From Methanosphaerula palustris E1-9c (lineage in GTDB: Archaea; Halobacteriota; Methanomicrobia; Methanomicrobiales; Methanospirillaceae): 64,000 nucleotides of DNA. Position numbers and translations under genes: made by a program. The stretch lies in the NCBI RefSeq assembly GCF_000021965.1, contig NC_011832.1, positions 620,001-684,000 on the forward strand, given 5' to 3'. The notes beneath the pieces were generated by a model, which was given only the letters and a program-made list of their open reading frames with translations, was not told the DNA's origin and did not search any database. This document shows, in pieces, positions 4,870 to 19,465 of the stretch (position 1 is its first letter; each line of letters begins with the position of its first letter).

Positions 4870-5265
4870 GTTCAGGGATTGAGTGGAGAGACTCTATCCA
4901 CGAACCGGATCTCAAAAAACGAATGTCTGTTAAGATTCAGGTGGGGGGAACAGGGACAATTCGGTCCAGTTCATTATCGACCTGATGGGTGAATCCACAG
5001 GGAATGGCTTGCATGCTGTCACCTCACTCGATTGATAAACAGAATTCCCTGGAGAACCTCGTTTGGAAAATAGGTCCCCTTTTAATTCTCTGTCACCGGT
5101 TTTCACCACCCGACTCTCGTCTCCTCGAGCTCTGTCTCGGTCATTCCGATCTGCGTTTGGATGACTCCCTGTCGTTCGATCTCGCCCGGTCCCGGCTCGA
5201 CCTCAGATCTTCACGGTGCTCGGCATCACCGCGGAGGCGATCGGCGCCGGCTCCCGGTCCCGGTT
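4870..5265. other. Gene-free stretch leading into the repeat array
   Basis: No convincing gene. Open frames here have no recognisable domain and no ribosome site. From about 5170 onward the sequence resembles the flank of the second repeat copy (about 5790-5868), so the repeated unit is larger than its inverted-repeat core. Confidence 0.5.
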
Positions 5266-5607
5266 GTTTGCAGCAGGGGAGATGGTTTGCGGCACGTTTG
5301 CATCAGTTTGCGGCACGTTGCTGCAAACAAGCGGAGCCGGTTCAGAGTTCAGATCGCCAATTCTGGCGCAATAATCCAGTTCCTCATTTCGTTTGCAGCA
5401 GATCGCGGGATCGCGCACCCACCCACCACCGTCACCCTCTGCAATCGGGGGTCTGTGTGTTCTTCAGATCTGCTGCAAACAACGATCTTTCATTCTGTAC
5501 GCAGGATGATTCAGTATCCGTTCCGCCAACCGGTGCCTTCTCTGCGTTTTTGTTCTTTGCACCATCTGCCGCAAACGTGCTGCAATCGTGCTGCAACTGA
5601 TGCAAAC
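5266..5607 (+). repeat. Nested inverted-repeat element, copy 1
   Basis: A 342 bp non-coding unit. Outer arms: 5296-5317 matches the reverse complement of 5587-5607 at about 20 of 22 positions (shared core GTTTGCATCAGTT). Left-end hairpin: GTTTGCAGCA at 5266-5275 pairs perfectly with TGCTGCAAAC at 5319-5328. Inner arms: GTTTGCAGCAGATC at 5391-5404 pairs perfectly over 14 bp with GATCTGCTGCAAAC at 5467-5480. Between the inner arms lies a conserved CACCCACCCACCACCGTCA block. Overlapping open frames exist on both strands but are not conserved between copies. Confidence 0.75.
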
Positions 5608-5868
5608 CATCTTCACCCGGATCGGGGCCGGCGTCGTCATCCGATCAGAGCCGGACCGGCCCGCCTCGTGACCAGGAGGAAGGGATCTCCCGTTTGAACA
5701 TGAACGGCAGCGCTCGACGTCGAACCGGTCCGGCTTCATCGGGTGCCCGCCCTCTCTTCTCACAGGCCGGCCGTGGCAGGGGAACGAGAGCTACGGGGAA
5801 GAAACATGGCGAGCCGGTGCCACCTTGGGGAGGAGAGATATGTCCAGAGCTGCGGCCGGCTCCTGGTT

Positions 5869-6211
5869 GTTTGCAGCAGGAGGAGTTGTTTGCTGCACGT
5901 TTCCTGCAGTTTGCTGCAGACTGCAGCAAACTCACGGCGCCGGTTCCTGGTCCAGATTTTCGATCCTGGCGCAGTCCTTACGTTTTTCATTTTGTTTGCT
6001 GCAGATCCCGGGAGCACGCACCCACCCACCACCGTCACCCTCTACAATCAAGGGGGTCTCTGTGTTCTCTGATTTTGCAGCAAACATCGATCTTTCTTCC
6101 TGTACACACGATGATATTTCATCTGTTCCGTAAACAGAGGCTGGATTCGTGTTTTCATTCTTTGCTGCAGATGCAGCAAACATGCAGGAAACGTGCAGCA
6201 AATGCAGCAAA
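5869..6211 (+). repeat. Nested inverted-repeat element, copy 2
   Basis: A direct copy of the unit at 5266, about 600 bp downstream. Outer arms 5889-5930 and 6161-6202 are 42 nt each and near-perfect inverted repeats, differing by two small indels. 5909-5931 is by itself a perfect 11+1+11 palindrome (GTTTGCTGCAG arms). Inner arms GTTTGCTGCA at 5994-6003 and TGCAGCAAAC at 6076-6085 pair perfectly. The same CACCCACCCACCACCGTCA block lies between them. The arm words differ from copy 1 (GCTGCA instead of GCAGCA) but still pair within the copy. A 229-codon open frame crosses it (5694-6383), with no family resemblance. Confidence 0.75.
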
Positions 6212-6514
6212 TCATCTTCACCGGAATCTGGGTGATGTCTCCCTCTTCAGATTGAGCCGGCCGGCCGTTCCCGTGACAGAGGGAGACAGCCGATCCGTGC
6301 TTCTCGACAAATGCCGGGCTGTCAGTACGCTGGAGAAGTCAATCGGCACCGAGGACGAGGCCGGCGATGGTTCGATCCGGTGATGTGTTGTTGTGTACCC
6401 ACGTGATACCCGGGTGTATCGGCACTGAAGAACCGGCGGCCAGGTGATCTGATTGGACGAGCCCGGAGACAGGGAACCGGATCACAATCTGCGGTTGAGC
6501 AACTTGTCAGCAGC

Positions 6515-6827
6515 GTCAGCAGCCTAAACGCAGCCTATACGCAGTTTCAACTGCGACCATAAAAACTGATAATGCTGCCTCATCTGCGGAAACGGATGAT
6601 ACATCATTATGCGTACAGAGAGAAGGATCGTTGTACGCAGCAGAAATGAAGAGCACGCACCCCGCACCCTCACTGGAGTAGAGTGCGTGTGTGGGTGTGT
6701 GCTCCGGGAAAAAACTGCTGACTAACATAAAATAATTGTATTCGCCCCTGGATTCAGAAAAAAAGCCGGCAATACCTTTCGATAGTCAGCAGCAAAAACT
6801 GCAAAGATGCTGCGACCTCCTGCTGAT
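6515..6827 (-). repeat. Nested inverted-repeat element, copy 3 (inverted, diverged)
   Basis: Read on the minus strand, this matches the interior of copies 1 and 2: a CCCGGAGCACACACCCACAC block, then TCTGTACGCATAATGATG equivalent to the CTGTACACACGATGATATT of copy 2. The outer arms are 6516-6547 against the complement of 6796-6826, keeping TCAGCAG, CGCAGC and GCAGTTT in the same order with variable spacers. Inner arms are weaker: CAGCAG at 6639-6644 pairs with CTGCTG at 6715-6720. The TTTGC part of the word has been replaced in most motifs. Confidence 0.6.
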
Positions 6828-7033
6828 ACTGCGGAGATGCAGTGATCACCATCCCGGCGCATACAAATAATGAACACCAGGCACACCTCTAAAAAGCCGG
6901 CCCCACCCCTCTCAACCCGGCCAGCCCCTCACACGATTCACCGGCATGGCCGCCGTTCACCAGCGCAGGGATCCGGTCGTTGCCATGCGGTGAATGAAAA
7001 GGGGCTGCCGGCCGGTTCCTCTCATCGGCGTTT

Positions 7034-16652: not shown

Positions 16653-17995
16653 AAGGGTCCGGCCCTTTATCCATCCCAGGGAGGCGATGATCTGGGTATA
16701 TCAGATCGAGCGCCGCACCGGAATGGTGCACCAGCCGGAAATCTCACCCTCGGACCCGGTCATGGTGGCGGCCATCACCGGCAACGCAGTTCTTCGGCGG
16801 CTCATCATTCCTCTACCTTGTGGAAATACATCCCACATTCTTCCGGAGATCAACTAGGCGTCAAAATTTCGACATCTGTCTGAGCAGAGATATCTGATGA
16901 CTGGTGACAGTCCTGGTTAAAGACAGGATCCCCAAGTGATTTTTTCCTGGGGACCCGGCAGTTTCTTCTCCTCGCACTCCAGGATTGTATCAAATTGGCA
17001 CGCATGATATCGAGATCGTCCCGCAGTGCCATCAGAACCTCATCTCTCCTGGCGATTGGCAGGGGTTGGCTTCTCGCGCGGCCTTCTGGCTGAGATATGT
17101 GGCGCTCCACAGGCTCAGAAGTTTAAGTACACCAGCCTCTTTCCTGAGAGGGTAAGTGCGTATTCCACTTTTTTGGGGACTCTAGGGTAGACTGTTCTTG
17201 TCACCAACCCGTTTTCTCCGGTTCCCACAGTTGCCTGACAAGCACACTCCTGGTGATAGTGGTAATCCGATGTGCGATCTCGCTGTACCGCAACGTCCAG
17301 GTACTCAGTGCATGGATTATCAATACCTTTTTTTGCCCTCAATCATGTTAAGGGCCGCTTCTCCCCAGATGATTCATCGTCATTGTTTCTTATTACAGGA
17401 TATCTCCGTTCAGGCTCACTCAACTCAATGATAGTATGTACCGAATGTGATACTATGTTCTGATTGGTATAGCGTGTTTATAAATAAAATCCCATTCTAA
17501 TTGAACAAAAAAACCCAGATGGACCCTTGAAATTATCAATAGTTTTCTCTCTCAATCCGGGATTTTAGGGGAAGTTTATGGAAATAATATTACAACTACA
17601 CACTCCTGTCGAAAGGCCAGTATCCCTGATCCCCATTTCACCGGGATGGCCCGGTGGGTTTGAGGAGTCCTGGATGAGAGAACCCGGGCTATGGCAGCAT
17701 TCGAAAGGTGAATTGAAGATCAGATCTTGCGTACCTTGCCTTCGCTGTATCGCAACAGATAATGAAAGCAGGGACCGAATGTCGCCACCGTGTGGGAGAC
17801 ACCGACTGGCCGGCAAGGTTGCAGGGTGTGGGATTATGGATCCGTACGTGGGTGCATGACGATGGGATATTCCCCTGATCACGGGAGTGTAAATGATCTC
17901 CTGGAATTGAATTATCCTTGGAGCAGGTCGTCTGATCTTCACTGGAATCGGAACGAACGACCGGTAAATGAACATTATTTATCGGAGATGAGCGC
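16653..17995. other. Gene-poor 1.3 kb stretch
   Basis: No intact gene seen. Small frames at 16850-17110 (minus) and 17578-17859 (plus) match nothing. The one recognisable item is a decayed HxlR-type regulator piece at 17115-17215. An AT-rich patch at 17460-17580 and another just before 17996 may carry the promoter of the radical SAM gene. Confidence 0.5.
17115..17215 (-). pseudogene. Remnant of an HxlR-family winged-helix regulator
   Basis: The minus strand reads GENGLVTRTVYPRVPKKVEY followed by ALTLSGKRL, the wing and final helix of HxlR-type regulators (consensus like DGLVTRTVYPEVPPRVEYSLT). The N-terminal helices are not recognisable upstream and the frame stops shortly after, so only a scrap survives. 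Confidence 0.65.
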
Positions 17996-19465
17996 ATGAC
18001 CCGGGTCGTCTTTGTCAACCCCCTCGATTCGTCCATTACAACAACAGGCCTCGGCCTCAAAGCACCGCCTCTGAATCTTATGTATCTTGCCGGTGCGGTT
18101 GAACAGGCAGGATTCTCCCCCAGTATCGTTGACGCGAATCTCCTCAATGCCCCCCCGGAGAAGATAACAGAGATCGTAGCACGGCTGCATCCTGACCTGG
18201 TCGGTCTGACGGCTACAACAGCAACGATCTCAAAGGCGTTCCAGTACGTCAGGAAAATTCGTGATGCGGTACCTGAGTGTTTTATTTTCATAGGTGGCCC
18301 GCATGTTACCTTCCTCCCCTCTGAGACCCTTGCCGAATGCCGCGAACTCAATGCCGTCGTCATCGGAGAAGGTGAGGAGACAGTCGTTGATCTGGTCACG
18401 TCATTCTCCATGACCGACCCTCACTGGCCGGAAACGGTTCGGGGGATTGCGTACAGGCGTAATGACGGAGATAGGGAACGGATCGTCGTCACACCGGCAA
18501 GAGAATTGATTCAGAATCTGGATGCATTGCCGTTTCCCGCCCGTCATCTGGTCCCATTCAACGAATACAAACTGTTTGACAAGGATGCAACAATCGGATA
18601 TATGATCACCAGCCGTGGCTGCACGTTTGCCTCCAATTACTGCTCCTCCTCGCACCTGATGGGTGGGATGTTTCGGGCGCGGTCTCCAAAAAATGTGGTT
18701 GACGAGGTGGAGGAACTCGTTTCAACCTACCATGTGGACACCATTGAGTTTCTTGATGACAATTTTATGCTCAATCGTTCCCGGGCCATCGATATCGCCC
18801 ATGAAATTCGATCGAGGGGACTTGATATCTCCTTCGTCGCCTCTTCCCGGGTGAACGCGGTCAATCGCGATCTGTTGATGGAATTAAAAAAGGCCGGTCT
18901 CTCTACAATATATTATGGTGTCGAATCGGGTTCTTTGCGCACCCTGAAGTTGATGAACAAGCGAATCACGTTATCCATGGCTGAGGATGCGGTCAGGATT
19001 GCAAAAGACTGCGGTATCAGCGTACTCACCTCGTTCATTATCGGGTATCCTGGGGAAACGTATGAGGATATGAATGCAACAATCAGGTTTGCGATCCGTC
19101 TCGACCCCGATTATGCACAGTTCACCATTCTCACCCCGTACCCGGGAACCCCGATATTTCAGGAATTGAAGAAGAACAACCTCCTAGCCACTGAAGATTG
19201 GGACCGCTACACTGTACTTGAGCCCATTATTCGATACGAAGCGTACGGGCTGACTTCGCGGAAGATCTCCCGCAAGCTCAAGGAGGCATATCTGCGGTTT
19301 TACCTGCGTCCAGGATACCTGTTCAGGCGGTCCGGTCTTTTAAAAACTGTACTCTATACCCTGTACCACAGTTACTTCCGACCTGCATTCCTGCACTCCG
19401 ATCCTCAGGGTTGGTACCGTAATTTTCCTGGCAACGAGCTCTCGGATTGCGAGAAGGGGACATAA
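17996..19465 (+). CDS. B12-binding-domain radical SAM protein with altered cluster motif
   Basis: 489 residues. Residues 1-140 form a cobalamin-binding-type Rossmann domain (PPLNLMYLAGAVEQAGF, then GLTATTATISKA and VVIGEGEETV). Residues 200-400 form the radical SAM barrel, with YYGVESGS and FIIGYPGET as expected. The cluster motif is TSRGCTFASNYCSSS: Cys209, Ser213, Cys216 where the family has Cys-x3-Cys-x2-Cys. The codon at 18632-18634 is TCC, one base from TGC. Relatives include HpnJ-like and other lipid- or antibiotic-modifying enzymes; the substrate here is unknown. The rest of the protein is intact and in frame, so it is either a recently inactivated enzyme, a sequence variant, or one using a non-standard ligand. 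Confidence 0.85.
   Translation: MTRVVFVNPLDSSITTTGLGLKAPPLNLMYLAGAVEQAGFSPSIVDANLLNAPPEKITEIVARLHPDLVGLTATTATISKAFQYVRKIRDAVPECFIFIGGPHVTFLPSETLAECRELNAVVIGEGEETVVDLVTSFSMTDPHWPETVRGIAYRRNDGDRERIVVTPARELIQNLDALPFPARHLVPFNEYKLFDKDATIGYMITSRGCTFASNYCSSSHLMGGMFRARSPKNVVDEVEELVSTYHVDTIEFLDDNFMLNRSRAIDIAHEIRSRGLDISFVASSRVNAVNRDLLMELKKAGLSTIYYGVESGSLRTLKLMNKRITLSMAEDAVRIAKDCGISVLTSFIIGYPGETYEDMNATIRFAIRLDPDYAQFTILTPYPGTPIFQELKKNNLLATEDWDRYTVLEPIIRYEAYGLTSRKISRKLKEAYLRFYLRPGYLFRRSGLLKTVLYTLYHSYFRPAFLHSDPQGWYRNFPGNELSDCEKGT

Follow-up and report, generated by a model that had tools for sequence, protein, structure and literature searches.

Frame-broken relics of a mobile-element initiator gene in Methanosphaerula palustris, and a predicted replication origin inside the intact gene

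Three related repeat-rich units in the genome of Methanosphaerula palustris E1-9c are likely relics of a mobile-element initiator gene whose intact, linker-coding DNA doubles as the predicted replication origin of the element. The units lie in a 64,000-nucleotide stretch of contig NC_011832.1 (positions 620,001 to 684,000), hereafter the window. There the gene part is dead, whereas copies 1 and 2 retain complete repeat arrays. As an explanation of the window this is ordinary, namely relics of a mobile-element gene, yet it exposes something unusual in the intact family that can be tested.

The three units are located at 5266-5607, 5869-6211 and 6515-6827, and the third is inverted. This arrangement, proposed in a first-pass annotation, was confirmed by direct repeats between copies 1 and 2 (5253-5460 versus 5856-6063, 76% identical; 5447-5627 versus 6052-6232, 72% identical) and by arms of 78% complementarity between 5454-5522 and 6591-6659. 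The inverted repeats reported within the units are real as well; 5889-5908 and 6183-6202 of copy 2, for example, are complementary at 20/20 positions. The nested arms are arrays of an iteron of ~9 nt with the general form NNNNCNNCA, present here as TTTGCTGCA or TTTGCAGCA. Iteron-like 9-mers occur 15, 16 and 6 times in copies 1, 2 and 3, far above the level in dinucleotide shuffles (mean 0.7, maximum 4). What had been described as arms that pair with each other is one short motif, repeated several times and facing both ways, and the arms are not uniquely matched. All 12 sites of the layout found in intact genes are filled in copies 1 and 2, and about half in copy 3 (Table 1).

The same annotation had treated the units as an independent non-coding element without a conserved reading frame. 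They are fragments of a coding gene: in tblastn searches with proteins of intact family genes all three units were matched (E down to 2.4e-25), at residues ~736-922 of the initiator protein only. No copy encodes an uninterrupted protein with the primase, AAA+ helicase, HTH and zinc-finger domains; each is broken by stops or frameshifts. The full extents are wider than previously given, ~5272-5740, 5765-6275 and 6276-6850. Copy 1, which carries a central frameshift and an in-frame stop, matches residues 769-861 of the L039 protein at 5731-5453 (frame -1) and residues 868-922 at 5433-5272 (frame -2). Copy 2 matches residues 806-924 of the same protein, and its detached unit (~5765-6275) is 81% identical at the DNA level to genome positions 946135-946649 over window positions 5765-6266. 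Copy 3, with stops and frameshifts, matches the L030 protein in three frames (residues 736-819, 806-876 and 861-922), with 76% amino-acid identity over the 71 residues of 806-876; its DNA is 83% identical to genome positions 393801-394240, and among the intact genes it is closest in sequence to that at 392 kb. The first three homologues from other genomes carried the repeats inside long ORFs, so that a reading frame does run through the repeats in homologues, an outcome that the annotation had itself named as refuting its reading. The count of three copies was also too low. The genome contains at least five further fragments (at 921, 946, 1,540, 1,660 and 2,439 kb), so that, with those of the window, linker arrays that are detached or broken number at least eight, and three intact genes.

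Table 1. Iterons, initiator-gene fragments and flanking repeat in the window (positions in the 64,000-nucleotide stretch)
Feature	Iteron	Position	Strand	Basis or remark
Copy 1, broken initiator-gene fragment (winged helix end + linker with iteron array)		5272..5740	-	tblastn
Copy 1 iteron, layout site 1	TTTGCATCA	5598..5606	-	
Copy 1 iteron, site 2	GTTGCAGCA	5589..5597	-	
Copy 1 iteron, site 3	ATTGCAGCA	5578..5586	-	
Copy 1 iteron, site 4	TTTGCGGCA	5567..5575	-	
Copy 1 iteron, site 5	TTTGCACCA	5556..5564	+	opposite orientation
Copy 1 iteron, site 6	TTTGCAGCA	5471..5479	-	central pair
Copy 1 iteron, site 7	TTTGCAGCA	5392..5400	+	central pair
Copy 1 iteron, site 8	TTTGCAGCA	5319..5327	-	
Copy 1 iteron, site 9	TTTGCGGCA	5307..5315	+	
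Copy 1 iteron, site 10	TTTGCATCA	5297..5305	+	
Copy 1 iteron, site 11	TTTGCGGCA	5286..5294	+	
Copy 1 iteron, site 12	TTTGCAGCA	5267..5275	+	
Copy 2, broken initiator-gene fragment (linker only)		5866..6231	-	tblastn; one in-frame stop
Copy 2 iteron, layout site 1	TTTGCTGCA	6203..6211	-	
Copy 2 iteron, site 2	TTTGCTGCA	6194..6202	-	
Copy 2 iteron, site 3	TTTCCTGCA	6183..6191	-	
Copy 2 iteron, site 4	TTTGCTGCA	6172..6180	-	
Copy 2 iteron, site 5	TTTGCTGCA	6161..6169	+	opposite orientation
Copy 2 iteron, site 6	TTTGCTGCA	6076..6084	-	central pair
Copy 2 iteron, site 7	TTTGCTGCA	5995..6003	+	central pair
Copy 2 iteron, site 8	TTTGCTGCA	5922..5930	-	
Copy 2 iteron, site 9	TTTGCTGCA	5910..5918	+	
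Copy 2 iteron, site 10	TTTCCTGCA	5900..5908	+	
Copy 2 iteron, site 11	TTTGCTGCA	5889..5897	+	
Copy 2 iteron, site 12	TTTGCAGCA	5870..5878	+	
Copy 3, broken initiator-gene fragment (winged helix end + linker)		6276..6850	+	tblastn
Copy 3 decayed iteron	TCAGCAGCG	6507..6515	+	
Copy 3 decayed iteron	TCAGCAGCC	6516..6524	+	
Copy 3 decayed iteron	AACGCAGCC	6527..6535	+	
Copy 3 iteron	TACGCAGCA	6634..6642	+	
Copy 3 iteron	TCAGCAGCA	6786..6794	+	
Copy 3 decayed iteron	TCAGCAGGA	6818..6826	-	
Flanking repeat R		6901..7016	+	also borders two detached copies in repeat array, genome 912-947 kb

The intact genes of the 2,922,917-bp genome, at 392, 1,423 and 2,155 kb, are ORFs of 1,061-1,118 codons. Relatives were found in 146 of 232 Methanomicrobiales genomes, among them Methanoregula, Methanolinea, Methanoculleus, Methanospirillum and Methanofollis. 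The protein consists of a primase-polymerase, an MCM-like AAA+ helicase, a winged helix, a linker and C-terminal zinc fingers, in this order, and the DxD, NGAH and Walker A motifs do not vary among nine aligned intact members. None of these domains was named above threshold by Pfam, NCBIfam or PHROGs, and no relative by sequence was found in the PDB. Structure prediction for the AAA+ plus winged-helix part reached a mean pLDDT of 82, and the best structural matches of the predicted fold were MCM helicases (Z 20.9, 256 residues, 3.3 A). Phages and plasmids yielded relatives of the primase end only; a first viral scan found nothing, and in viral contigs the relatives were confined to the primase domain, their matches covering about 400 residues at most. 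None of 42 whole contigs was circular or episomal. At four loci, defence-type genes were observed beside intact initiators (UvrD helicase with PD-DExK nuclease, SLFN/AlbA, HsdM, DUF4062 and HEPN), and at one of the four an integrase gene lies upstream of the initiator gene. Initiator elements may be carriers of defence cargo.

In intact genes the array occupies the DNA that codes for the linker, which follows the winged-helix domain and precedes the C-terminal zinc fingers. The linkers of 90 genes were compared with a null in which synonymous codons were permuted within each linker and the protein was kept. Inverted 8-mer repeat pairs numbered 2,496, against 359 in the codon-permuted linkers, a seven-fold excess over the protein-keeping null, and 436 where a stretch of equal length was taken from the same genes; for direct 8-mer repeat pairs the numbers were 2,367, 452 and 597. 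The NNNNCNNCA family exceeded the codon-permuted null in 58 of the 90 genes, with 26 iteron versions such as TTTGCAGCA, TTTACAGCA, TTTTCAGCA, CCTTCCGCA, TTTTCATCA and TTGACAGCA. A detectable NNNNCNNCA array was absent from 32 genes, some of which have other motifs (GTTACACA in one M. palustris paralogue, for example) and some of which may have no array at all. In two Methanoculleus-type genes the linker is 249-300 codons long and the iteron pattern recurs with a period of ~153 nt; these are expanded arrays.

The iterons follow a mirror-symmetric layout of ~340 nt with up to 12 sites, in which a block of four to five sites is followed by a convergent central pair and a mirrored block (plus-strand offsets 0, 8, 19, 30, 128 and 280; minus-strand offsets 41, 206, 291, 302, 312 and 332). 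At least seven of the 12 sites were filled in 39/58 genes, across 20 iteron sequences, compared with 32/174 permuted linkers. Mirrored opposite-strand pairs included 210 of 394 iterons, compared with 164 (maximum 186) when strands were shuffled and 147 (maximum 161) when positions were random. A+T content is ~0.35 ahead of the array and peaks at 0.68-0.70 between layout offsets 90 and 120, after the left block and before the central pair. A spaced three-iteron pattern gave 24 matches in 18 of the 232 genomes, and its reversed control none. Iterons occur in every reading frame and on either strand, and individual genes show 3 to 6 strand/frame states. Because the inverted repeats exceed the protein-keeping null, the iterons lie in all frames and on both strands, and many iteron sequences that co-vary with the recognition helix share one layout, the array is a signal kept at the DNA level within coding sequence. 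The nucleotide-level constraint and copy-specificity of the inverted repeats, as initially described, were thereby borne out.

Co-variation between protein and DNA suggests that the winged helix of the initiator reads the iterons of its own gene. Its recognition helix (residues 715-722) correlates with iteron sequence (partial r 0.52, p 0.0005), in a Mantel-type test on related sequences that handles relatedness only roughly, and the ten-residue window from residue 715 ranks second of nearly 800 tested along the protein; equally high scores were reached by a few windows in the helicase that distinguish the two main clades. Examples of helix-iteron pairs are SYMGIYRM with TTTACAGCA, SYSSIYRT with TTTGCAGCA, SYSGIYK with TTTGCTGCA and SYLSIYRM with TTTTCAGCA. 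At 20-30% background divergence, iterons differ by 0.6 nt between genes with the same helix and by 2.4 nt between genes with different helices. The zinc fingers could be the DNA-binding part instead, but their divergence showed no residual correlation with the iterons, and the winged helix was the only tested domain still correlated after correction (r 0.11, p 0.02). The divergence of the arms between the window copies is explained by such gene-specific iterons, which co-vary with the recognition helix of the initiator.

We propose the following mechanism for the intact genes. The initiator would bind the iterons in its own gene through its winged helix, and the two mirrored half-arrays would load two MCM-like helicase rings in opposite directions. 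The DNA would open nearby, probably at the A+T-rich stretch that separates the left block from the central pair, and primers would be made by the primase domain of the initiator. Iteron sequences specific to each paralogue would keep coexisting replicons compatible. Homology, broken frames, nucleotide-level constraint, layout, helix co-variation and the predicted fold were all established computationally; from these we infer binding, origin firing, double-ring loading and compatibility.

It is unlikely that the iterons, instead of being the origin itself, serve as operators through which the initiator gene is autoregulated or its copy number controlled. Plasmid iterons often serve both replication and autoregulation or copy-number control, and a protein bound to an array inside the gene could block transcription. 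However, an array that lies ~2.4 kb downstream of the initiator start codon, is mirror-symmetric and includes an A+T-rich stretch does not resemble a promoter operator, and the likely binding protein is itself a primase-helicase.

A structured RNA or a DNA cruciform, in which the arms are kept complementary to form a long nested hairpin, was among the explanations first offered for the units, together with self-correcting ends, and the evidence does not favour them; we regard the RNA or cruciform as quite unlikely. All three units do fold better than shuffles (z-scores of -4.0, -7.0 and -6.9 for copies 1, 2 and 3), some genes have a strong central hairpin, and in the related plasmid pRN1 the origin is a stem-loop of ~100 nt downstream of the primase-helicase gene (PMC4234260). 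The folding of the window copies is, however, accounted for by oppositely oriented copies of one motif. Mismatches per 9-mer amounted to 1.43 for mirrored sites, 1.44 for other opposite-strand sites and 1.47 for same-strand sites; since mirrored sites match no better than other pairs of the same array, positional base-pairing is not conserved, and RNA or cruciform pairing was rejected; nor does the array fit a pRN1-type stem-loop origin, also on account of its position inside the gene. A central hairpin as a general family feature was likewise rejected (mean z -0.7). Direct repeats are as enriched as inverted ones, Rfam gave no matching family up to E = 1, and co-variation with a DNA-reading helix is unexpected for an RNA.

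Still less probable is a mobile palindromic or MITE-like element that inserts in frame, as do the Rickettsia palindromic elements, with the window copies as free insertions. Copy 2 and the detached copies at 1,540, 1,660 and 2,439 kb do consist of little beyond the linker, and a linker-only copy was found in another genome. Against this, the array was found at one place in one gene family only, its sequence tracks the winged helix of the host gene, nearly all 90 genes have a linker of similar length (mostly 120-180 codons), and alignments inspected by eye revealed no terminal repeats or target duplications common to the detached copies. Plain protein-level repetition, whereby low-complexity linker residues alone would give repeated DNA, has practically no chance of being correct: the linker is variable and compositionally biased, but ~85% of the inverted repeats disappear when synonymous codons are permuted within it, and since either strand and each of the three frames can read the motif, no shared peptide explains it and the idea is already contradicted.

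The zinc-finger part was found on none of the detached arrays, and five of the six placed by tblastn end at residues 913-924. Copy 2 shares its detached boundaries with the 946-kb copy. Between these two, 109/110 iteron bases are identical, compared with 130/163 other linker positions (p 2.6e-7) and 161/176 flank bases (p 0.006 against the iterons). This suggests selection on the iterons after detachment, and no more than suggests it, because part of the wider linker difference is due to a replaced central segment and perhaps to conversion. Frame-broken or linker-only arrays are present in other genomes too; a search for detached arrays in a sister genus returned mostly gene regions. A longer initiator pseudogene with a broken frame (genome 2745811-2747242) has kept its linker. 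Zinc-finger-only initiator copies were observed at genome positions 2161246, 2167072 and 893643, and the last begins right at the linker end, so that the right edge of the array may be a point of recurrent breakage or exchange.

Detached arrays might act as decoy origins that titrate or mis-load the initiator of incoming related elements, a form of immunity based on incompatibility, or they might be mini-elements that consist of an origin only and are replicated in trans. We consider this doubtful, with hints for it in the fully occupied layouts of copies 1 and 2, their near-invariant iteron bases relative to the 946-kb copy in the case of copy 2, and the existence of several detached copies with little beyond the array. 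The window arrays are placed between repeats among defence genes. Flanking repeat R is GC-rich and ~100-115 bp long and occurs in about a dozen copies, in the window and at genome 912158-946738. In the 912-947 kb island its copies have one orientation and lie about 0.6-13 kb apart, separated by genes of toxin-antitoxin-like and defence-like type and bordering two detached iteron arrays; the island resembles a cassette array. The window copy of R folds into a hairpin better than shuffles, and three others do not. Direct repeats of ~130 bp flank the 946-kb detached array (17995-18147 and 18593-18741 of locus L129), and copy 2 has the same array boundaries but does not have both of them.

With a replication origin in the linker-coding DNA, a primase-helicase family that is widespread in archaea but uncharacterised would become a replicon open to direct tests, as the putative origin, its sites and the reading residues can be predicted from sequence for dozens of genes. 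The family would also provide a natural set of initiator/iteron pairs with differing specificity, a likely explanation for the coexistence of several related elements in one methanogen genome, and perhaps a starting point for vectors that replicate in Methanomicrobiales. Together with its MCM-like, primase-fused protein, the mirror-symmetric array would be a simple model of two-helicase loading in opposite directions.

The gene family itself is already known, and the iteron array inside the gene appears to be the new part; the first-pass annotation knew of no described family, which holds for the in-gene array, of which we found no description in the open-access literature consulted, and not for the gene. 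Judged from organism, domain order and neighbourhood, the genes appear to be arCOG07809 (Mpal_2033 type), for which Makarova et al. 2014 (PMC4158269) describe a role as replication protein in small integrative archaeal elements, with primase-polymerase, helicase, HTH and zinc finger, some elements having integrases. Domain order, an upstream gene for a Holliday-junction-resolvase-like nuclease and the occasional integrase agree. That text names a superfamily I helicase, whereas the model obtained here is MCM-like AAA+, and in the part consulted it deals with genes only and makes no mention of iterons or an in-gene origin.

Among other systems, SaPI Rep and SCC Cch/Cch2 are likewise initiator helicases of integrative elements, MCM-like in Cch, with short iterons read by a C-terminal domain and two hexamers proposed; they differ in being bacterial, in the origin downstream of the gene and in a separate primase (PMC7581432). 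The pRN1 protein of Sulfolobus (ORF904) is also an archaeal primase-polymerase, helicase and winged-helix protein with an origin tied to its gene and a layout kept while the sequence diverges, but it has an SF3 helicase, belongs to another arCOG and has no iteron array (PMC4234260). Origins inside initiator genes are known from repABC plasmids, with oriV within repC (PMC3155836), and from RepA_N plasmids such as pSK41 and pSK1. The initiator of the latter is an unrelated bacterial protein (RepA_N winged helix) without primase or helicase, and Pfam gave no match to the RepA_N (DnaD-like) N-terminal domain in the initiator proteins studied here; the RepA_N plasmids have four boxes and no large mirror-symmetric array. 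The in-gene arrangement appears nearest in kind to the pSK41-type plasmids. There the boxes bound by the initiator are in the middle of its own gene, the origin is within the part that codes for a dispensable linker, and incompatibility groups diverge (PMC5703833), to which we liken the array described here; in the intact archaeal genes, too, repeated sites inside the initiator coding sequence are kept at the DNA level.
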